A stretch of DNA of 64,000 nt from Solirubrum puertoriconensis (GTDB taxonomy: Bacteria > Bacteroidota > Bacteroidia > Cytophagales > Hymenobacteraceae), in assembly GCF_001483135.1 (NCBI RefSeq), contig NZ_LNAL01000008.1, positions 1,364,001 to 1,428,000 of the forward strand. Reading direction: 5' to 3'. This document shows, one piece after another, positions 1,235 to 36,770 of this stretch (the first letter of the stretch is position 1; every line of letters begins with the position of its first letter). The position numbers and the translations under genes are program-made. The notes under the pieces were generated by a model that saw only the letters and a program-made list of their open reading frames with translations, made no database searches and had not been told where the DNA came from.

Positions 1235-3718
1235 TTACGTCGGAGTGTTGACGGCACTTGGCCCGTCGATTCTCGGAGCTTCCACATAGTTGCTCGTGAT
1301 ACTTAGGCTGCAGTCGATCCAAATTGGAAAGGTTACCGCGCCGTCCCACGTTCCTAGCGGAGTTGTTTCGTTGTCGAGGTACACATCTACCTTATCGACT
1401 TGCACGTCGAAGGTCAGTTCTACTGCACCTACTCCACGGGTAACACCACTGCGCAGCTTACCTAGGTTGGCGCCCATGCTCCACTTGGAGTACGCCGTGT
1501 CCTCGAAAAACAGGGCGTAACGCATATCGGTAAATGAGACGCCTGAGGCTTGGTTATTCAAGCCTACCATCTGCGAACCTGAATTACCAGCCCGCACCTT
1601 CAGTTTCCCAGGTGCTGCCAGCGCCTTGCTTGAGTTAGCTCCCGCGCCGAAGGATTCATTGCCACTTACGCCTACGCGCTTGGTGGTCGGATTGTACGTC
1701 ACGATGTTGCCCGCGATGTTGACCCAATCTACCTCCTGCTCAGTATTAACAGGCGGAGCAGGTGCACCGTACTGCGAACGATTTGGCAGGGCTGTGCCTT
1801 TGGTCAAGCTCAGGATGTAGTCGGCCACGATGCGGCCTAGCACGTTGAAGCCGTTGCCGTTCAAGTGCACGAGCATGTAGCGCACCCCGCCATCTTCCGA
1901 ATAGAAGTAGTTGGTGTTGGCCAGATAGCCCGTTGCTTCGTAGCCCGCTGGGGCGTTGGCCGTTAATAGTTCGGCGTAGGAAGAGTACCCCGCATCCTGC
2001 CCAAAGTCGGCTGTTCCTTGTGCACCAATCAGCGACTTGCCGTTGTCCAAGTCGATGTAAGTAGCCTTGCGGCCATCGGGGCCAATGCTGCCGACTTCTG
2101 CAGCCAGCTTGGCGTTGGTGGCTTTGTGCAGCCGCCCTTCTTGGTCCCAGCCCGCCGACCAGCCACTAACGGTGGTTTTGGGCAGGGTCGAAATCCAGAA
2201 CACTTTGTACGCCCCGGCGTCGTAGCACTGCTGAATCCACTGCTTCACGCTGTCGCAGTAAGCAACCCCCGAGGCGGTAAGCGTCTGCGTGGTTTTGTTC
2301 CACATGGCTTGCCCGATGTTGCCGCCCATCGAGTTCGTGCCTTCCATGCCCACCACGATGTTGCCCCGGCCGGCTACCATGCGACTGCCAACATGCAGCT
2401 GGAAGTTCTCCAACATCCAATCAATTCCTTTGCCGCCTGAGCCGCCGTTGTAGTGGGTATAATCGCCTTCGCCAGCTAGGAATGAAGCGGTGCGGTCGGG
2501 AAAGCAGTCGCCTCGATCTTCCACGTTGGAGTTGCCGCCGTAGATGACGTTGTAGCTGGTGAAGTTTTGTGCAGTCACTGTAAACGTGCCTGCCGTAATC
2601 GAGCCCCCAGGAAAGTTGAGCACCACATTGCCCGAGCTGGCGCCCGAAGGCACGGCGGCCGTGAGCTGCGTGCCGCCGGCATTAGCCGAAATACTGATCT
2701 GCCCCGACCCGCCGAAGCTCACCGACTGCACTTGGTTGAGGCCGGTACCGGTAAACGTCACCACGGTGCCGATGGGCCCGCTGGCCGGGCTCATGTTCGT
2801 TACCACCGGCGAGGTGGCCTTAGCCGCAATGGCCGGGCTGTCGGCGGTGCCCGAAGCATTGCGCCCGGTCGCGGCCTTCACGCGGCCCTTCCACTTGCCC
2901 GCCGCGTGGGCGTCGTCACTGATGCTTAGGGGCGCGTACGCCTGATATGCGCCGCCGCTCACCGAGTACTCCAGCTCCGACGAGCCGAGCGGGTGCGAGA
3001 GCGTGAGCACGCGCAGGTTGCTGTCGAAGCTCCAGGTAGGCGCGTCGGGCGTGGTGTTGCCCGGGTTCGTGGGCGTAGTGCTGGCCTGCACCGTGAGGGT
3101 CACCGTGGCCGTGGCCTTGTTGTTGTCGGCATCCTTCGCTTCCGCCGTGATGGCGTAGCTGCCCGTGGCCCCGGTGGGCACCGTGATGGCTAGCGAGTAT
3201 TCGTTGCCGTTTTTCACGCCGAAGCCCAGCGGCACGCCGAGGGCGTTGAAGAACTGCACCGAGGTCACGGCCATGTTGTCGGTCGCGGTGGCCACCAGCG
3301 TAACCGACTGCCCCGCCGTCACAGTCGTGCCCGCGGCCGGGCTGGTGATGCTCACCACCGGTACCACCGATACGGGCGCCGTGGGCGCCAAGCCCTGCAG
3401 CTTCTGCAGCACGTAGGTGTTCAGCGCGGCCTGCGAGTTGAGGGCCTGCGGTATGCCGTAATCCCCAGCTGCGAACGGCGAGAAGGCGGTACCACCCCCT
3501 AGGTTAGCCAGCGCCGCTGCTACGGCTTTCTCGCTGGGGGCTTTGTCGGGTGCGTTGCCGAGGCTTTGCGTCAGGTCGTTTTTCAGCACCGACGCTTCGG
3601 CTACCCGGTCCAGTGCCGTGATTAAGTCCGCGCCGCGGGTGCGGTCGGCCGGGCCGCCCGACACCACCTTGATGGCTTGGCGGAAAAAGGTCTTGAGTTG
3701 GGAGAGCGAGTAGGCCAC
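1235..3718 (-). CDS. Phage tail fibre / receptor-binding protein with Ig, IPT/TIG and SGNH-hydrolase-like domains
   Basis: 827 residues. Residues 1-110 look like a virion-attachment region. Residues about 122-211 form a bacterial Ig-like domain (I-T-S-P-A-x-G-T-T-V-x-A-G). Residues about 303-383 form an IPT/TIG fold (P-x-S-G-P-I-G-T-V-V-T-F-T-G-T-G). Residues about 388-637 resemble an SGNH/GDSL hydrolase: G-G-N-S-N at 394-398 fits block I with Ser397, G-x-x-G-T-N at 457-462 fits block III, and His618 in V-H-L-N fits block V, although the usual Asp three residues before the His is a Met. The C-terminal 190 residues are probably beta-rich. It ends the structural block, five bases from the connector gene. 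Recognition or deacetylation of a surface glycan is inferred. Confidence 0.72.
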   Translation of the reverse strand: MAYSLSQLKTFFRQAIKVVSGGPADRTRGADLITALDRVAEASVLKNDLTQSLGNAPDKAPSEKAVAAALANLGGGTAFSPFAAGDYGIPQALNSQAALNTYVLQKLQGLAPTAPVSVVPVVSITSPAAGTTVTAGQSVTLVATATDNMAVTSVQFFNALGVPLGFGVKNGNEYSLAITVPTGATGSYAITAEAKDADNNKATATVTLTVQASTTPTNPGNTTPDAPTWSFDSNLRVLTLSHPLGSSELEYSVSGGAYQAYAPLSISDDAHAAGKWKGRVKAATGRNASGTADSPAIAAKATSPVVTNMSPASGPIGTVVTFTGTGLNQVQSVSFGGSGQISISANAGGTQLTAAVPSGASSGNVVLNFPGGSITAGTFTVTAQNFTSYNVIYGGNSNVEDRGDCFPDRTASFLAGEGDYTHYNGGSGGKGIDWMLENFQLHVGSRMVAGRGNIVVGMEGTNSMGGNIGQAMWNKTTQTLTASGVAYCDSVKQWIQQCYDAGAYKVFWISTLPKTTVSGWSAGWDQEGRLHKATNAKLAAEVGSIGPDGRKATYIDLDNGKSLIGAQGTADFGQDAGYSSYAELLTANAPAGYEATGYLANTNYFYSEDGGVRYMLVHLNGNGFNVLGRIVADYILSLTKGTALPNRSQYGAPAPPVNTEQEVDWVNIAGNIVTYNPTTKRVGVSGNESFGAGANSSKALAAPGKLKVRAGNSGSQMVGLNNQASGVSFTDMRYALFFEDTAYSKWSMGANLGKLRSGVTRGVGAVELTFDVQVDKVDVYLDNETTPLGTWDGAVTFPIWIDCSLSITSNYVEAPRIDGPSAVNTPT

Positions 3719-3722
3719 GGAG

Positions 3723-4277
3723 TTAGACGGCGTAAGTGTGGAGCCCGCCGCGGCCAGGGCGCCGGCGGGTGGGGTGGCAAGTGGTGGTCGTGGTGCCGCG
3801 ATACGCCCGCAGCGCGGCTTCGAGGCGCCCGCGGTAGAGGCTGCGGTCGGCCTCGATGTCGGCCTTTAGCTCGGCGCGGCGCTGCGCGCTGATGGGCTGG
3901 CTGTTCAGGTCGGTGAAGACCTCCACCCCGTTTTGGGTCATGTGCGTGCCGTGCCAGAGGAACAACCGCCGAAAAGACTCGCACACGAGCAGCGGGCGCA
4001 CGAAGCCGTTCCACAGCGCGGCTAGCTTATTATCATCCCAGCTCGAGGCGGGCGGCGTAGCCAGGAAGTCGGCCGGGTCGAACTCGATGCCCGGAAACTC
4101 ACCTAAGCCGTTGCCTAGGTTGCGCTCGAAGCCCGCCCATTCGGCAGCGGTAAGCAGTGACCGCACGTCGAAGGTTTGGGCCTTGCCGATGTAGGGGTTC
4201 ACCAGCTCGTCGGCCACGTTGATCGACAACGGGTAGAAGGCCGGAAAGTCGGTTTTCGTAATCAGGAGCTGGCTCAT
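3723..4277 (-). CDS. Probable head-tail connector protein (DUF6712-like)
   Basis: 184 residues. The helical N-terminal two thirds (acidic, with conserved-looking Trp and Phe) resembles the DUF6712 / gp6-like connector proteins of Bacteroidota phages. The Arg- and Thr-rich C-terminal tail has no clear fold. Its ATG overlaps the portal stop by four bases, indicating translational coupling, and it directly precedes the receptor-binding gene. The family assignment is from memory of the sequence pattern and the position beside the portal. Confidence 0.5.
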   Translation of the reverse strand: MSQLLITKTDFPAFYPLSINVADELVNPYIGKAQTFDVRSLLTAAEWAGFERNLGNGLGEFPGIEFDPADFLATPPASSWDDNKLAALWNGFVRPLLVCESFRRLFLWHGTHMTQNGVEVFTDLNSQPISAQRRAELKADIEADRSLYRGRLEAALRAYRGTTTTTCHPTRRRPGRGGLHTYAV

Positions 4278-5683
4278 GCGTTGGGCTTGGGCTTAGGTTT
4301 AGCTGAAGGCTCCAGACCGACTAGGCCGAGAATCTGCTCGTCGCTCATGCGGTCGAGCACCTTGGTAGCGATAATGGGCGAGAGCGAGTTGAGCGCCTTC
4401 AGCAGCTTCTCCGACTCCGTATCCTGCGGCTTCTCGATGGGCGGCAAGCCGCGGATGGCGCGGATTTCGTCGTCGGTCATCTTGGCCAGCACCGCCGGGT
4501 CGATGTAGTCCACCGGATCGAGCGGCGCCACCGTGAAGTCGAGGTGCGGAAACCACTGCTGCAGCGGCTCGGTGATGAGCGCGCGGGCCGGCTCCACCAC
4601 CAAGCCGAAGAGCTTGATGGAGTTCACGATTTGCTGGTTGCTGCCCAGCACGCCCGGCTCGGCCACGCCGCAGAGCACCGGCGGCACGCCCATGCGGCGG
4701 TACACTTTGCCCTCGATGCGGGCCGTCATGTCGGTCAGGCCCTTGGAGTTGGGGCCCTTGTCGATCATGTCGATTTCGGGCATCTCCTCCGCTTTGTCGG
4801 CTACCAGAATCATCACCGACGCTTCGGTGCTGGAGCCCTTCAAATCCTTTACCGTGGTGCGCAGCGCGTCCATGTCCGGGGAGGTGATGTACGGGCGGTG
4901 CTCGTCGGTCTGGCCTTCGCCCGGCACCCAGTCCGGGTCGGGCTCGTCGTTGTACTTGCTGCCGACCACCTTCAGGATGGAGTCCGGGAAGAAGCCGTTT
5001 TTCAGCGTCTTGCGGTCGTAGCGCGAGAGTTCGGCATCAGACTCCAGGTCTTCTTTGGCGGCGTAGTAGCCGGGCACGGCGTACTGGTTGCGGGCCACGC
5101 GCTTCTCAAACGAGTAGTACAGATGGCCCCAATACTCGTCGCGCAGGGCCGCGGCCAGCACCTCTTCGGCAATGTCGTCGGCCGAGGCAACCGGATCGTA
5201 CCCGAGGTAGACGCGGTTGTCGCCGGCGGGCATCTTGCCCTTGGCCAGCTGGTAGTTGTGCACCCAGCGCGGGCCGTTCTTCTCGCGGCGCAGCACGTCG
5301 GTTTCCACCACGTACACCTCGGCCGGCTCGCCGCCAAACGTGTAGCGCACGGCCAGGCTCACGCCGATGCCCATGGCCGCGTAGTGCTTGGCTTCGGCCA
5401 GCAACTGGTTGAACGTTTGCTGCGGGTTGGCTTTGGCCTTGGCCGTGGCCTCGCTGGCGAAGCCCTTGCCGCCGATGAACTGCGCCAGGCGCGTCAGGCA
5501 CATTTCCGCGGTGCCCGAATCGTACACGATGCGCACGATTTCCTGCGGCTGCTGGTTGGTGGGCCCCCACGGCTCGATCTTGATGGGTTCGCCCTTGCCT
5601 TCCGAGGGCAGCGCCGGCGCGGTGGCCGCGGGTTTGTAGCCGGTGCGCACCAAAGAGACGGTAGGACGGCGGCGGTTCGCCAT
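4274..5683 (-). CDS. Phage portal protein
   Basis: 469 residues from the ATG at 5683 (M-A-N-R-R-R). An in-frame ATG at 5716 is less likely because its leader lies in a terminator hairpin. The protein has the layout of siphovirus portals: an alpha/beta N-terminal region with a long insertion, then the segment about 310-390 with V-P-P-V-L-C-G followed by L-G-S-N-Q-Q-I-V-N-S, typical of portal stem and clip regions, and a charged Pro/Lys-rich C-terminus. Portals form the dodecameric DNA channel at one capsid vertex. The gene is coupled to the connector at 3723-4277. Its position downstream of the capsid gene is unusual. Confidence 0.8.
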   Translation of the reverse strand: MANRRRPTVSLVRTGYKPAATAPALPSEGKGEPIKIEPWGPTNQQPQEIVRIVYDSGTAEMCLTRLAQFIGGKGFASEATAKAKANPQQTFNQLLAEAKHYAAMGIGVSLAVRYTFGGEPAEVYVVETDVLRREKNGPRWVHNYQLAKGKMPAGDNRVYLGYDPVASADDIAEEVLAAALRDEYWGHLYYSFEKRVARNQYAVPGYYAAKEDLESDAELSRYDRKTLKNGFFPDSILKVVGSKYNDEPDPDWVPGEGQTDEHRPYITSPDMDALRTTVKDLKGSSTEASVMILVADKAEEMPEIDMIDKGPNSKGLTDMTARIEGKVYRRMGVPPVLCGVAEPGVLGSNQQIVNSIKLFGLVVEPARALITEPLQQWFPHLDFTVAPLDPVDYIDPAVLAKMTDDEIRAIRGLPPIEKPQDTESEKLLKALNSLSPIIATKVLDRMSDEQILGLVGLEPSAKPKPKPNA

Positions 5684-31219: not shown

Positions 31220-31450
31220 TTATTGGTGCGGCTGCAGATGTGCAGCCTGCCAGGCGGCAAAGCCGTTGGGGTCGGTTTCTTGGGCTAGCTGTTCGACGGC
31301 GGGCCAGTACTTCGAATTGGTGGATTCGCTTAGCACGACATCGTTGAGCGTTGCCTTCTGCTTACAGTCCGTGCGCGTCTGAAGAATGCGGAGGTAACCA
31401 GCCGGCATGAGCTGGCGAATTCGCGTCGGCTGTGTGGCTGGATTGTCCAT
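31220..31450 (-). CDS. Cro-like regulator
   Basis: 76 residues from the ATG at 31450; the longer frame to 31531 would run through the operator region. The N-terminus R-I-R-Q-L-M-P-A-G-Y-L-R-I-L-Q-T-R fits the first helix and linker of small Cro-type proteins, followed by a possible recognition helix (A-T-L-N-D-V-V-L-S-E-S) and W-P-A-V-E-Q-L-A-Q-E. It is divergent from the CI-like repressor with a 107-base shared region, which is the strongest evidence. Confidence 0.6.
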   Translation of the reverse strand: MDNPATQPTRIRQLMPAGYLRILQTRTDCKQKATLNDVVLSESTNSKYWPAVEQLAQETDPNGFAAWQAAHLQPHQ

Positions 31451-31512
31451 ATGCAGTTTCAGTAAAGGCGTATATTGCGCCGTTCGTAGTAGTAGTAAGC
31501 CAAAGGTTAGGT

Positions 31513-31528
31513 ATTTACGAGAGTAAAT
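31513..31528. promoter_or_regulatory. Putative operator of the phage immunity switch
   Basis: ATTTAC at 31513-31518 and GTAAAT at 31523-31528 form a perfect 6+6 palindrome with a 4-base spacer, in the gap between the divergent repressor (from 31558) and Cro-like gene (from 31450). A related GTAAA half-site occurs at about 31,472. The site is likely bound by the repressor and/or Cro. Confidence 0.55.
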
Positions 31529-31557
31529 CAAGTTTTTGCCTAAATAAATTTCAGCAA

Positions 31558-32472
31558 ATGCCTGAATTAGATAGTAAAGCCACTGTTAATCAGCGTATTC
31601 AAATGCTGATTGATAAGTATGAGGGTGGTAACAAATCTGCCTTTGCGCGCGCAGTTGATATGAAATCCGGCGTAATCGGCGATTTGGTAGGGGGCAGGCT
31701 CAATAAGCCGAGCTTCGATAACCTTCTGAAGATTATGGCAGCCTATCCTTCAGTAAATACCGAATGGTTATTAACTGGAAAGGGCTCTATGCTCAAGCCA
31801 GATGTTATTGTGCGCGATGGCGACCAAGCGTTCATTGCTGAGGCAAAGAATTACGCTAAGCCCGAAGTTGCTCACACAGATACGCACGTAGTAACCCTCG
31901 ACTCAGCTCACGCCGACAACACGGCTGCACCCGTTTACAACGTAAAGGCCGCGGCTAACTACCTCGCCGGCTACGACAGCCAAGAGCAGGTGGAGCAGCT
32001 GGATGTGATCAGCTTCCCACGCTTTATGGTGAAGGGTGGCGAGCACGCCGTGTTCCCCGTGATCGGCGACTCCATGGAGCCGACCTTCCTGGCCAAGGAC
32101 TACGTGCTCTGCCGGAAGATCCCGCAGTCGGATTGGCAGTATGTCAATGACCTCACCGTGTGCGTCGTGGTGAGCAAGCCCCACGGCCTGCAGCTCAAGC
32201 GCGTGAAGGTGCGCCCCGACGAGCACCTGGTGCGGTGCAAGTCCGACAACCGCCGCCACCACTCGTTCAACCTGGACTTCGCCGAAGTGGTGGAGCTGTG
32301 GCGCTTTGAGTGGCGTCTGACGGCCAACGCCGAAAACATTACCGAAGACATCTTCCTGAAGGTCGACCGCCTCGAGGACAACCTCGAAGACCTGCGACAG
32401 ACCTTCCAGTCGCTCGTGGCTGCCAGCAACGTGCCGTTGGTGCGGGCTGGGCGGAACAACCCCGCTCAGTAA
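31558..32472 (+). CDS. CI-like repressor with S24 autoprotease domain
   Basis: 304 residues from the ATG at 31558. An N-terminal helix-turn-helix (about 10-75, N-K-S-A-F-A-R-A-V and S-F-D-N-L-L-K-I-M) is followed by a linker with Ala-Gly at 137-138 (A-N-Y-L-A-G-Y), a likely self-cleavage site, and the S24 domain with Ser172 in G-D-S-M-E-P and Lys214 in L-K-R. LexA/CI family members cleave themselves when RecA filament forms, so induction by DNA damage is expected. The C-terminal ~50 residues add a helical extension. It maintains lysogeny, diverging from the Cro-like gene. Confidence 0.9.
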   Translation: MPELDSKATVNQRIQMLIDKYEGGNKSAFARAVDMKSGVIGDLVGGRLNKPSFDNLLKIMAAYPSVNTEWLLTGKGSMLKPDVIVRDGDQAFIAEAKNYAKPEVAHTDTHVVTLDSAHADNTAAPVYNVKAAANYLAGYDSQEQVEQLDVISFPRFMVKGGEHAVFPVIGDSMEPTFLAKDYVLCRKIPQSDWQYVNDLTVCVVVSKPHGLQLKRVKVRPDEHLVRCKSDNRRHHSFNLDFAEVVELWRFEWRLTANAENITEDIFLKVDRLEDNLEDLRQTFQSLVAASNVPLVRAGRNNPAQ

Positions 32473-32576: not shown

Positions 32577-32783
32577 ATGGAAAACTTACACGATTGGATT
32601 TCGAGTGGATGCGCCCTTGTCTCCCTTGGTATTTCATTGTTCACCTTGGATAAGGTGAATAAGATCAAAAAGGAATCTAACATGTCCACTGGCGACATGA
32701 CCAACAGCCGGCCAGTTAACCAAACGCTTCATGGAGGCTCTAACAACACCCAAGTAGGCGGAGACCAGTACAATGGCCGATAG
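32577..32783 (+). CDS. Small membrane protein with C-terminal amyloid-signalling-like motif
   Basis: 68 residues, ATG at 32577 to TAG at 32783. Residues 6-24 form a hydrophobic membrane helix (W-I-S-S-G-C-A-L-V-S-L-G-I-S-L-F), followed by a basic stretch (K-V-N-K-I-K-K). Residues 48-67 carry N-Q-x3-G-G-x3-T-Q-V-x-G-x-Q-Y-N, which the next protein repeats at residues 5-24 with 10 of 20 identities, no gap, and conservative differences. The Q-V-G core recalls the RHIM amyloid motif. It overlaps the next gene by 11 bases, so the two are made together. It is proposed to be the membrane effector of an ABC-3C system. Confidence 0.75.
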   Translation: MENLHDWISSGCALVSLGISLFTLDKVNKIKKESNMSTGDMTNSRPVNQTLHGGSNNTQVGGDQYNGR

Positions 32784-33321
32784 CAACCAACGAATACTAG
32801 GCGGTACTGGACACACGCAGATTGCAGGTAACCAGTACAACAGCAATCATTACTACGCCGCGCCCACTTCCGATGCTATTGAACTTGGCGTCATTGGTGA
32901 GGTATTCTCCTTTGTTACCCAGAACATTGACGCCTGCAAGCAGTACAAGAAGAGCAAACCTGACACTTGGGTCCAGACGCAGGATAAAATGCGAATCAAT
33001 TTTTCAGCAAAAGATTGCGAAGCGATAGAACAGCTTTACTACAACGCTTTGCCCAAGATGAAATTAATTGAATCGTATTTTCAAAAGTTAGATGAAGATC
33101 AGCACGATGATCTTCATAATTACTTTTATGAGCTATATCTAATTCATAGATCGCGAGATATTAATCCAATGATGATTTTTAGCGATTTAATAACGTCAAT
33201 AATTCCTCCAAATCGACAGAGAGATCCGCAATACCGAAATATTGCAATGGCTATGGTAATGATGTTTTTTGAGGATTGTACTATATTTGAAAAAACAGTG
33301 ACGCCAACACTCTGGGACTGA
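32773..33321 (+). CDS. ABC-3C system CTD-type protein with N-terminal amyloid-like motif
   Basis: 182 residues. Residues 5-24 hold the same N-Q-x3-G-G-x3-T-Q-I-x-G-x-Q-Y-N motif as the preceding protein. Residues about 33-182 form an all-helical domain, including I-N-F-S-A-K-D-C-E-A-I-E-Q-L-Y-Y-N and F-Y-E-L-Y-L-I-H-R-S-R, with the pattern of the ABC-three-component C-terminal domain that links effectors to the ATPase. It has no separate catalytic domain, so it may signal through the motif instead. It is coupled to both neighbours (11-base overlap upstream, one-base overlap downstream). AT-rich relative to the phage. Confidence 0.7.
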   Translation: MADSNQRILGGTGHTQIAGNQYNSNHYYAAPTSDAIELGVIGEVFSFVTQNIDACKQYKKSKPDTWVQTQDKMRINFSAKDCEAIEQLYYNALPKMKLIESYFQKLDEDQHDDLHNYFYELYLIHRSRDINPMMIFSDLITSIIPPNRQRDPQYRNIAMAMVMMFFEDCTIFEKTVTPTLWD

Positions 33322-33569
33322 TGATAACCCCAACAAAACATGGAGATATAACCAAGAATGCATTGGTTGTTGCTGCCGAGGTAATTAAATTATTGAAAAA
33401 GGATGATTATAATATTGATGAGTTGCATAAGGTTTTAGCTAAGAAAAAAGAAATATCTCTGTATTTGTATAACGACGTGTTATTGTTTTTGTATTTGGTT
33501 GATGCTATTGAGTTAGTTCAAGATAAAGTAATTCTCATCGAAAAAAAGGACGAAAATGTTCTTAATTAA
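33321..33569 (+). CDS. ABC-3C middle component (MC6-like)
   Basis: 82 residues, helical with a winged-helix-like pattern. The opening M-I-T-P-T-K-H-G and the central L-Y-L-Y-N-D-V-L-L-F-L-Y-L-V-D-A-I-E-L match the small middle components of ABC-three-component systems (I-x-P-T-K-H at the N-terminus, then L-x-F-L-Y near the end). In these systems the component bridges the ATPase and the CTD/effector protein. Its start overlaps the CTD gene stop by one base, and it overlaps the ATPase gene by 14 bases. The family call is from the shared pattern. Confidence 0.7.
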   Translation: MITPTKHGDITKNALVVAAEVIKLLKKDDYNIDELHKVLAKKKEISLYLYNDVLLFLYLVDAIELVQDKVILIEKKDENVLN

Positions 33570-35325
33570 TATTTATTCAGAGCCTGCAGGTCTCTTTCCA
33601 GAAGTAACATTTAAAAATGGGGTCAATTTTATTTTTGGAAAGAAGGAAACCTCAGACCCTAAGGAGTCTTTGAATGGCATTGGTAAATCCACCTTTCTGG
33701 ACCTTGTAGACTTTTGTTTGCTTGCTTCTTTACAAAAAACGCACAACCCGCGTCTGTACGCCGCTAAAGAAATAACTGACGATTACTTCATCGTCTTGAA
33801 TTTCCGAGTGGGTGGAAAAGTGTACACAATCAAGCGCTCCACGGCAAATCCCAAGTTTGTTGCATTCGGCGAACTAGGCTTTACCCAAGGAATGAACGCC
33901 GACGAAGCACGCGAACTGCTTGCCGAACTCATTTTCAGCCGTCCAGAAAATTACCAAGGTTTGCTGGAGGCCAAGTGGTTTCGCCCCTTAATATCCTTCT
34001 ACTTAAAGGTTCAGAAATTTAAGAAAGGACTTTTTGCTGATCCGTTTAAGTACTTGGCTGAGGCAAAGGACTTAGACTTAAATGTATATCATTTATACCT
34101 GCTCGGGCTTGATAATAACCTTGCAATCAAAAATGCAGAGTTGTATACGGAGCTTAAGTCTTTAAAGCCAGCAATTAAAAAGCTTCAGCACTTCGTTTCC
34201 AAACGCTTAAAGCTGAAGGATTCAGGTATGGTGGCGAGCGAAATAAATAAGATTGTTGCTAAAATTAAACGACTTGAAAATACTATCGATTCGTTCCGGC
34301 TTGCGGAACAGTATAAAGATGTGGAAAATGAAGCCAATGAATTGACCGGTAAAATTAAAGAGCTATTGCTTCAAAATGTTACCGACAATAAATTATTGGC
34401 AGACTATATATCTACCTATGAACAAGATGAGAAAATAAGCCCTCAGCGTGTTGCAAAGATTTATAATGAAATATCTGAGGAGTTGGCCTATGCTGTCAAA
34501 AAATCATTAAATGAAGCTGTGATTTTTCGACAGCGAATAAACATCTCAAGAAAGAAATTTTTGTCAGACGAAATCCAGCGTCTCACTCAGTCGCTTCAGG
34601 TCAACGAAAAGCAAATTCGTGAGTTAGAAGAGCGACGGGCTAAGCTGTTCACGTTTTTGTCAAACAAAAATGCTTTAAAGGACCTGACTGAATCTTACTA
34701 TATTCTGAACGAACAGAAGCAACACTTGGCAGAAATACAAGCCAATACCAAATTGCTGGAGCAGTTGAATCAGGATCTAGCGCTGTTGGAGGTGCAGGTG
34801 TCCAACATTAAGGCAGCTTACTTTGCCTTTGTCAGAGAGAATAAAAGAACTATTGACGACCTGACAATGCTGTTTTACGAAGTATTGCAGGCGCTGTACT
34901 CCGAGGAAAACAACACGGCAGGATTTTCAATTACCCCAGACCAGACCAAGGAAAAGGTGTTAGACATTGTGGTAACCCTGCCGGATATGTTTGGGAAGGG
35001 CAAAAACCACGGACGAGCATTGCTTTACGATCTAACCGTGGCCATTCACAACATCCGCACAACCTACAACTTTCCCCGTTTCTTGGTGCATGATGGCATT
35101 TTCGATGGGATGGATAAGGCGCACTTCATCGCCACGCTCGAGTTTGTCGATAGGCAGGTAGAGAATGGCCTGGAGTTCCAGTACATTGTTACGGTTAACG
35201 AGGAAGGTTCATTAGAAGACAACTTCGGAAAGAAAGAACTAGTGGATCCAAGAGTGGTTGAGGATGAGGCCATCTTGGTGCTTTCGCCGAGCCGAAAGTT
35301 GTTCGGAACTGACTTCGCCGCATGA
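33556..35325 (+). CDS. ABC-3C system ATPase (DUF2326-containing)
   Basis: 589 residues, SMC-like ABC ATPase. Walker A is N-G-I-G-K-S-T at 40-46 and follows an N-terminal strand set (I-Y-S-E-P-A-G-L-F-P). A long coiled coil spans about 195-430. The C-terminal DUF2326-type half-domain has a degenerate signature (G-R-A-L-L-Y-D-L-T at about 486-494) and a Walker B-like F-L-V-H-D-G-I-F-D-G at 509-518. It is the conserved core of ABC-3C conflict systems and is thought to sense DNA and switch the effector. It is the third overlapping gene of the cassette and lies between repressor and integrase. Confidence 0.85.
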   Translation: MFLINIYSEPAGLFPEVTFKNGVNFIFGKKETSDPKESLNGIGKSTFLDLVDFCLLASLQKTHNPRLYAAKEITDDYFIVLNFRVGGKVYTIKRSTANPKFVAFGELGFTQGMNADEARELLAELIFSRPENYQGLLEAKWFRPLISFYLKVQKFKKGLFADPFKYLAEAKDLDLNVYHLYLLGLDNNLAIKNAELYTELKSLKPAIKKLQHFVSKRLKLKDSGMVASEINKIVAKIKRLENTIDSFRLAEQYKDVENEANELTGKIKELLLQNVTDNKLLADYISTYEQDEKISPQRVAKIYNEISEELAYAVKKSLNEAVIFRQRINISRKKFLSDEIQRLTQSLQVNEKQIRELEERRAKLFTFLSNKNALKDLTESYYILNEQKQHLAEIQANTKLLEQLNQDLALLEVQVSNIKAAYFAFVRENKRTIDDLTMLFYEVLQALYSEENNTAGFSITPDQTKEKVLDIVVTLPDMFGKGKNHGRALLYDLTVAIHNIRTTYNFPRFLVHDGIFDGMDKAHFIATLEFVDRQVENGLEFQYIVTVNEEGSLEDNFGKKELVDPRVVEDEAILVLSPSRKLFGTDFAA

Positions 35326-35343: not shown

Positions 35344-36702
35344 ATGCCCGCCACCTTCAAGCTCGTTCTCTCCGCCAAGCCCGACGCCATCGACGGGCTC
35401 TACGATGTGCGCCTGCGCATCACGGCGGAGCGGGTGAGCCGTTTCCTTAATACGGGGGTCGCTATTGCACAGAAGCATTGGAATCCGAAAGCCACGCTGG
35501 ACAAGGAGAACTGGATCAAGACCAGCCACCACGACCACGCCGAGCACAACGACTCCTTATATAATATGCTGCGGCATGCTAAAAAGCTGGCGACGGCGCA
35601 TCCAGCCTGGAGCGCCGACCAGCTCAAGGCGGCGCTGAAGAACGGTGGGGTGGATCCTTCCGCGCCCGACTTTATTGCGTTCTGCCGTAAGGTACTCGCT
35701 CAGGAGCAGGCCGTGCTCGACGAGGCGCATCGCAAAGGCAAGCCGACGCCTGGCCTCAGCCAAGGCACCATCGACTCCCGCCGCCCCATCATCGAGAAGC
35801 TGGCCAGCTGGCACGGCAAGCCGTTGCCGTTCGCCCAGCTCACCGAGGAGCTCATCAAAAAGTACGAGCACTACCTGCTGCGTGACGTCGGCAACGCCGG
35901 CACCACGACGGTGAAGAACCTAAAGACGCTGCACACCTTTATCCGGGAAGCGATCAAGGCGCGCTACCTCACGCCCGACAAGGACCCGATGGCGCTCTAC
36001 GAGTACCCGGATGCCAAGCCGAAGCGCGTGTGGATGGAGAAAGGGGAGGTGGATAGCTTTGAAACGGTGACGCTGCCGGCGGCCCAGCACGCCGCGCGCA
36101 CCGTGTACTTCCTGCAGCACTACGCCCACGGCTCGCGCATCGGCGTAATCCTGCGGCTGAAGTGGCGCGACCGCGCCGCCGGGCGCATCCGGTTTGTCAT
36201 GGACAAAGGCGGCCGCATCAAGCTGGTGGAAGAAACGCCCGAGCTCACGGCGCTGCTCGACTCCTTCCTGCCGAAGCAGGGCAAGCCGGATCCGGACGCG
36301 TACATCCTGCCGTACCTGCCCGCCGGCTTTGAGCAGCTGCACCCTAAGGAGCAGCTCGAGACGACCAAGCGCGTGACCTCGGCGATCAACGCCAACCTGA
36401 AGCGCGCGGCGCAGAAGCTGGGCATCGAGAAGAAGCTGAGCAGCCACGTGGCCCGGCGCACGCTGGCCACTCTGTCGGAACGGGTGCTGCGCGGCGACCT
36501 GCGCCAGGTAGGAGGACTGCTCGGCCACACTAACACCCGTACCACGCAGATCTACTTGCAGGATATGGATACCTTTGTCGTCGACGAGGCCGCAAGGCAG
36601 GTGTACCAGGCGCTTGGGGCGTCAGGTACAACACAGGTACAACAACCACTGAACACCGGTGAACAGCCGGTGTCCGATCCGGACGCTGAAAACGCTGCCT
36701 AG
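35344..36702 (+). CDS. Phage integrase, tyrosine recombinase
   Basis: 452 residues. The N-terminal ~110 residues are a SAM-like/arm-binding region with W-N-P-K-A-T. The catalytic domain has Arg265 (H-G-S-R-I-G), a Lys in M-D-K-G-G-R, H-x-x-R at 368-371 (S-H-V-A-R-R), the second His at about 395 (L-G-H-T-N-T), and the nucleophile Tyr404 (T-Q-I-Y-L). All are present, so it should be active. Proteins of this layout integrate phages and conjugative elements in Bacteroidota. It ends the phage, and its 3' end carries tandem and inverted repeats. Confidence 0.95.
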   Translation: MPATFKLVLSAKPDAIDGLYDVRLRITAERVSRFLNTGVAIAQKHWNPKATLDKENWIKTSHHDHAEHNDSLYNMLRHAKKLATAHPAWSADQLKAALKNGGVDPSAPDFIAFCRKVLAQEQAVLDEAHRKGKPTPGLSQGTIDSRRPIIEKLASWHGKPLPFAQLTEELIKKYEHYLLRDVGNAGTTTVKNLKTLHTFIREAIKARYLTPDKDPMALYEYPDAKPKRVWMEKGEVDSFETVTLPAAQHAARTVYFLQHYAHGSRIGVILRLKWRDRAAGRIRFVMDKGGRIKLVEETPELTALLDSFLPKQGKPDPDAYILPYLPAGFEQLHPKEQLETTKRVTSAINANLKRAAQKLGIEKKLSSHVARRTLATLSERVLRGDLRQVGGLLGHTNTRTTQIYLQDMDTFVVDEAARQVYQALGASGTTQVQQPLNTGEQPVSDPDAENAA

Positions 36703-36727: not shown

Positions 36728-36770
36728 ATAGCTGACCAGTTGTTGCGGTCCGCTCGTCACCTCAACTAAA

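Follow-up and report, generated by a model that had tools for sequence, protein, structure and literature searches.

The 64,000-nucleotide window examined here, from contig NZ_LNAL01000008.1 of Solirubrum puertoriconensis, contains at positions 32577-35325 a cassette of four open reading frames (ORFs), P1 to P4, chained on the plus strand with overlaps of 11, 1 and 14 bases. The cassette is assigned to the ABC-three-component (ABC-3C) systems of the Lamassu superfamily and sits between the repressor and the integrase of a prophage inserted at tRNA-Cys. It is probably a variant of the ABC-3C design in which the usual fused effector has been replaced by a separate, probably membrane-bound small protein, P1. 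The C-terminus of P1 and the N-terminus of P2, which carries the ABC-3C C-terminal domain (CTD), share a short motif. Our interpretation, to which we give a probability of about one half, is that this prophage-borne cassette uses a separate membrane effector tied to the CTD by the matched motif; sensing, assembly, membrane damage and defence are inferred. The cassette features are as follows.

32577..32783, plus strand: P1, small membrane peptide and putative effector (ORF, 68 aa); equivalent layout in five further loci
32598..32648, plus strand: hydrophobic segment of P1 (residues 8-24, Kyte-Doolittle hydropathy), then a Lys-rich stretch
32718..32777, plus strand: motif copy 1 (P1 residues 48-67), from the ungapped alignment with copy 2
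32773..33321, plus strand: P2, motif plus ABC-3C CTD10-like protein (ORF, 182 aa, overlap of 11 with P1)
32785..32844, plus strand: motif copy 2 (P2 residues 5-24), starting 67 bases after copy 1 in a different frame
32878..33318, plus strand: CTD10-like helical domain of P2, effector-fused in most relatives (PF20275 sub-threshold; C-terminal half of PDC-M68A; alignment with nine relatives)
33321..33569, plus strand: P3, ABC-3C Middle Component 6 (MC6; PF20293; ORF, 82 aa, overlap of 1 with P2)
33556..35325, plus strand: P4, DUF2326 SMC/Rad50-like ATPase, probable sensor (PF10088; ORF, 589 aa, overlap of 14 with P3)

A first-pass annotation of this DNA had described the chained genes and the motif N-Q-x3-G-G-x3-T-Q-V-x-G-x-Q-Y-N in both proteins, and the ORF coordinates and alignment bear it out. 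Residues 48-67 of P1 and 5-24 of P2 are identical at 10 of 20 positions, with no gap. The score of this pair, 61, was reached by none of 2000 shuffles of the P1 tail in one run and by 1 of 5000 in another. The two copies begin 67 bases apart in separate frames, spanning the P1 stop and the P2 start. The P1 frame is open upstream as far as a GTG at 32310; the ATG at 32577 was taken as the start because the counterparts of P1 in other loci have 55-96 amino acids. By the positive-inside rule, the positively charged flank of a membrane segment is expected to be cytoplasmic. Since the Lys-rich stretch comes after the hydrophobic segment, the C-terminal motif of P1 should face the cytoplasm. No Pfam family at all matches P1 at E <=1, and P2 and P4 match no NOD-like receptor (NLR; NACHT/NB-ARC) family at that threshold. 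Searched against the PDB at E up to 10, the P1 motif had a sole match, to the beta-helix protein Antigen 43 (E 2.9, not significant).

The proposed ABC-3C assignment is supported by P3 and P4. P3, sitting between the first component and the ATPase, matches Pfam MC6 at E 2.7e-7, with 30.9 bits against a cutoff of 27.2. P4 matches DUF2326 at E 6e-20 and the PADLOC profiles PDC-M68B at 3e-75 and LmuB at 3.4e-18. The match of P2 to CTD10 (14.6 bits, E 0.051) is below the curated cutoff of 28.1; a second match of P2 covers the C-terminal half of PADLOC PDC-M68A (positions 127-252, E 3.7e-7), and the CTD region of P2 is alignable with nine relatives. Ahead of the CTD there is just a 35-residue N-terminal extension holding the motif, and no fused effector domain. 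In P4, D513 and G514 are invariant across ten aligned sequences, the window included. Asp513 is presumed to be the Walker-B residue, with Gly instead of Glu next to it; a more distant set has the consensus Asp-Ser at this position. The Asp-Gly in place of Asp-Glu suggests slow or no ATP hydrolysis in the P4 clade. It parallels the Glu-to-Gln change that LmuB generally has at Walker B, with which LmuB may hydrolyse little ATP according to the part of a 2023 review used here (PMC10586767).

Among related loci (numbered L), the separate small protein goes together with the solo CTD. An architecture script sorted the first components of 57 ABC-3C loci, calling fused any of at least 215 amino acids and nothing more. 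Fused components were found in 47, solo CTDs in eight, and two were left unassigned (L070 and L100, the L100 record annotating a first gene of 930 bases). Excluded from the 57 were fragments (L061, L079, L092), duplicates (L062, L063, L071, L075-L077, L083-L087, L106, and L002, which lies within L043) and most of 30 loci found with the HNH profile; of that set, five genomes (L044-L048) were fetched again, and a small number of loci re-entered through their ATPase. Near-copies inside the 57 are L039/L040, L047/L048/L073/L074 and L080-L082. Directly upstream of six of the eight solo CTDs lies a small hydrophobic protein with a matching motif: the window, L055, L056, L060, L052 and L117. The script alone found the matched pair in L052, L055, L056, L060 and L116 (= L117). 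It missed the window pair because the P1 frame, open to the GTG, exceeds its length limit, and detected it once the ATG at 32577 was used as the start. Cassettes that keep the two genes linked without the motif pair, which would have spoken against the first-pass reading, did not turn up: all six loci found to have a small hydrophobic protein directly upstream of a solo CTD carry a matching pair. They span about five phyla, and their CTDs are of two types.

Several fused relatives carry recognisable effector parts at the corresponding place. HNH/endonuclease parts occur in L043 and L054 by profile, in L046 below cutoff, and in L049 and L102 by annotation; SMEK parts occur in L058 by profile and in L099 and L103 by annotation. 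The fused N-terminal parts of L053 and L057 had no effector profile match, and that of L059 had a weak LmuA match. Junctions between effector and CTD in six fused relatives were compared as possible carriers of the split motif, and none was clearly alike (lowest 13 of 300 shuffles); L043/L054 and L057/L059 are simply close relatives at the junction. As a separate observation, L053:2772-3785 and L054:2349-3275 have a polar junction segment, GG.Q.NQQ.D....NI, in common (1 of 500 shuffles), with N-terminal parts that differ.

The motifs match better within a cassette than between cassettes. We scored the last 36 residues of each small protein against the N-terminal extension of each CTD protein, ungapped, with BLOSUM62. 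Within-locus scores were 61 (window), 66 (L055), 91 (L056), 61 (L060), 48 (L052) and 52 (L117), against a mean of 27.4 and a maximum of 57 over the 30 cross-locus cells. The own partner was the column maximum in 6/6 cases and the row maximum in 5/6, and among the 720 possible pairings the true one alone reaches the matched sum. At most 1 in 5000 shuffles reached the true within-locus score in any of the six loci. As a control, the 47 fused loci were treated in the same manner: 23 had no small upstream ORF, and none of the 24 tested came out at 0 of 300 shuffles, the lowest being L101 with 2 of 300. A loose resemblance (GN.N..AGRDI) connects the motifs of L056, L060 and L117; the window, L055 and L052 have distinct motifs.

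Identical codons among the residues identical between the two copies were counted against a uniform-codon expectation in five loci (window, L055, L056, L060 and L052), in all of which the copies start 67-86 bases apart. Identical codons numbered 4 of 10 in the window (expected 4.0), 4 of 14 in L055 (expected 5.4) and 5 of 9 in L052 (expected 3.4). In the window and L055 the residues are kept while the synonymous sites are randomised, so there was no fresh duplication there, and the motif residues of these two loci are under constraint.

The hydrophobic parts are also related. The segments of the window and L060 are alike at 9 of 5000 shuffles, those of the window and L117 at 2 of 5000 and those of L060 and L117 at 0 of 5000; L055 and L056 are alike at 1 of 1000. 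The CTDs of the window, L055, L056 and L060 are CTD10-like, all sub-threshold, and those of L052 (1.3e-18) and L117 (1.4e-25) are CTD12. Because the hydrophobic parts of the window, L060 and L117 are related, one peptide family serves two CTD types. The middle component of L117 matches MC8 best (3.5e-13) and also MC6 (3e-7), that of L060 is MC6-like below threshold, and L052 has an MC6 match below cutoff together with a DUF2326 ATPase. The L052 peptide has two hydrophobic stretches and a match to a phage holin family below cutoff (E 0.023).

How could such a cassette work? P4, with P3, would sense a foreign-DNA state and hold or release the CTD. Once clustered or exposed, the P2 motif could assemble homotypically with the cytoplasmic tail of P1, probably as a beta-arch or amyloid-like stack. 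P1, clustered in the inner membrane in this manner, would depolarise or permeabilise it, and the damage would sacrifice the cell and so stop a competing phage. The motif, which is Asn/Gln/Gly-rich and present once in each partner, would replace the effector-CTD fusion as the link. We consider the cassette to be probably a phage defence.

The arrangement is most likely organised like bacterial amyloid-signalling pairs, with the CTD replacing the NLR. In the available portion of the description of bacterial amyloid signalling sequences (BASS), an effector presumed to target membranes ends in the motif and an NLR begins with it, the genes being adjacent or overlapping (PMC7889193), and the motif families are diverse as far as the portions used cover them (PMC7889193, PMC8086366). 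This is the geometry that the first-pass annotation had pointed out, and it fits: as in the Bell-domain/NLR pairs, the small putative membrane effector carries a short polar motif C-terminally and its partner carries one N-terminally, and the two are encoded by overlapping adjacent genes. The partner in the window, however, is an ABC-3C CTD rather than an NLR, and the membrane part of P1 is a single helix in 68 amino acids. Similarity extends to RHIM and to the fungal PP, HET-s and sigma motifs, which also have about 20 residues, a Gly/Asn/Gln-rich composition and a homotypic pairing logic, but P1 and P2 match none of them in Pfam at E <=1. A fungal pair described in 2025 has a G/Q/Y/N pattern loosely similar to the window motif in the part of that paper used here (PMC12261475).

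On the ABC-3C side, the nearest system is PDC-M68, a PADLOC candidate made of an HNH-CTD protein and a DUF2326 ATPase. It shares with the window cassette the MC6, ATPase and CTD10-like components in the same order and strand, and the mobile-element setting. The window cassette differs in having no fused N-terminal effector, with a separate membrane peptide and shared motif instead. According to the part of the 2023 review used here, LmuA and the ABC-3C first component have an N-terminal enzymatic effector, and their C-terminal domain may dock onto the other components, LmuB is the likely sensor, and Lamassu action is thought to be abortive infection; that part includes membranes among the possible targets of effector types and does not mention a small membrane peptide (PMC10586767). 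Among the titles and abstract openings of the matches listed, no paper was found that connects a small membrane effector or a shared motif of amyloid-like kind with ABC-3C or Lamassu; the original ABC-3C description may mention such a connection.

Several results weigh against our interpretation. The absence of RHIM, HET-s, PP and sigma matches in P1 and P2 is repeated in the small proteins of L055, L056, L060 and L052 (E <=1) and L117 (E <=0.1). The hydrophobicity of P1 is moderate, the maximum 17-residue Kyte-Doolittle mean being 1.81. The loci with the pair are few, six, and three of them are metagenome bins (L055, L056, L060). Two solo CTDs, L065 (= L118) and L090, have no small ORF, motif or peptide, and other genes lie upstream. 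The tail of L117 scores 57 with the L060 CTD protein and 52 with its own partner, so the pairing is not perfectly exclusive. Finally, codons are identical at 15 of 18 positions in L056 (expected 6.6) and at 7 of 11 in L060 (expected 4.2), and the match in these two loci may in part reflect recent duplication or gene conversion.

The alternative that survives best, though we think it somewhat unlikely, is that the motif docks the two partners constitutively. Its copies would form a small, ordinary beta assembly that keeps P1 on the CTD, and activation would be conformational, with no fibre growth or templating. Effector and CTD are fused in 47 of the 57 loci, hence a non-covalent tether would be the least change. 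The motif is moreover short, polar and cognate-matched, and its lone PDB match, though not significant, is to the beta-helix protein Antigen 43. On the other hand, near-identical sequences on both partners suit homotypic stacking, whereas a docking pair could use two different surfaces. The L056 copies, identical at 18 of 19 residues, are hard to square with a lock and key, though they may be recent.

We regard as distinctly improbable that P1 is a membrane anchor which tethers the sensor complex to the inner membrane, such as where phage DNA enters, with harm done elsewhere or by simple exclusion. P1 is tiny and has one moderately hydrophobic helix, and superinfection exclusion would fit a prophage gene lying between repressor and integrase. 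However, the slot of P1 is taken in several relatives by nuclease-type effectors (HNH in L043, L054, L049 and L102; SMEK in L058), and the cassette has no other candidate effector. Least probable of all, and only a slim chance, is that gene fission, by tandem duplication at the effector-CTD junction, left the shared motif behind with no present role. The short spacing of the copies, the nearly identical codons of L056 and the junction segment common to the fused L053 and L054, whose N-terminal parts do not match the same PADLOC families, might suggest this, but the window and L055 keep residues over randomised synonymous sites, the pair is kept in six loci of about five phyla, and the junctions of the six fused relatives compared do not clearly resemble the split motifs.

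The two solo CTDs without a peptide have neighbours of their own. In L118 a Fic gene (3753-4835, minus strand; Pfam Fic_N 7.3e-20) lies upstream of the solo CTD, and in L090 a PLD-like protein (1741-3765; PLDc_2 3.2e-4, below cutoff). A Fic or PLD-like protein beside a solo CTD is possibly a second way of splitting the effector from the CTD. At L045:597-2330 (genome G609), an HNH-type ABC-3C cassette has two neighbouring AbiTii-family proteins (PF18864, 8.2e-28 and 5e-44) upstream, each with a C-terminal tail rich in Asn and Gly (INNNGDGN.IN.G..N). The second of these genes is also present at L024:664-1371. The two tails are perhaps another shared motif pair.

The prophage location that had been claimed for the cassette is supported by its neighbours and by a 17-bp attachment repeat.

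31432..32472, plus strand: prophage repressor, S24 peptidase type, left neighbour (PF00717; phrog_4 3.4e-19)
35344..36702, plus strand: prophage tyrosine integrase, right neighbour (PF00589; phrog_1 3.1e-18)
36749..36765, plus strand: 17-bp attachment core, right copy, repeating the left copy at G000:C8:1358905-1358921

The left core overlaps the 3' end of a tRNA-Cys gene (ARAGORN: L107:13848-13919 = C8:1358848-1358919). Approximately 41.9 kb lie between the two cores, and terminase and tape-measure genes are found farther left of the repressor. The prophage has an IMG/VR entry as well, contig IMGVR_UViG_2786546754_000002, which is identical across P2 and P4. The integrase domains and plasmid matches in Hymenobacter point to a host in the Bacteroidota.

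Relatives were sought in several collections. In the genomes of the order, P2 has a relative in 1 of 291 besides its own genome (G002, L043). There the ATPase is 42% identical to P4, the CTD forms one fused protein with an HNH-type endonuclease region that, like that of L054, matches the N-terminal half of PDC-M68A (5.8e-25 in L043), and a separate small peptide was not seen at the locus. An ATPase scan of an 84,980-species collection, with just two peptide patterns, gave nine loci, eight of them full-length at 39-42% identity; the ninth, the fragment L061, was left out. At E 1e-20 the ATPase profile found 17 of 395 genomes of the phylum, and 1 of 286, 3 of 193 and 3 of 74 in other sets, counts that include the centre genome itself. 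Plasmid records matched the window ATPase in 60 cases and the L060 ATPase in 30, and 24 plasmid regions were inspected. There was no match in tblastn searches of P2 against phages and plasmids at E 0.01, in those of the L056 small protein and CTD protein against plasmids with the low-complexity filter on, or with the ATPase profile against the PDB at 0.01; a CTD profile found this prophage alone among viral contigs. A strict DNA pattern for the motif occurs, across the 291 genomes of the order, in the window genome only, at two sites, and a looser pattern allowing two mismatches added four sites in that genome, with two mismatches each. In viral contigs the motif pattern gave three stretches; besides this prophage, two fall in phage-structural-looking proteins and are put down to chance. 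No stretch there matched a second pattern, which was derived from L056.

According to the part of the 2023 review at hand, it is not yet clear how LmuA effectors are autoinhibited and then activated (PMC10586767). If our interpretation is true, the fields of amyloid signalling and SMC-like DNA-sensing immunity would be joined. Matched motif pairs would then offer an easily testable answer for one subtype or more, and also a set of signalling peptides made by nature, of which some are likely to be orthogonal. More tentatively, and with the balance somewhat against it, amyloid-like homotypic signalling may extend beyond NLRs: SMC/Rad50-type ABC-3C sensors would repeatedly have swapped fusion for cognate pairs of prion-like motifs that bring in membrane-killing peptides, and diversification of the motifs between cassettes would insulate coexisting systems.

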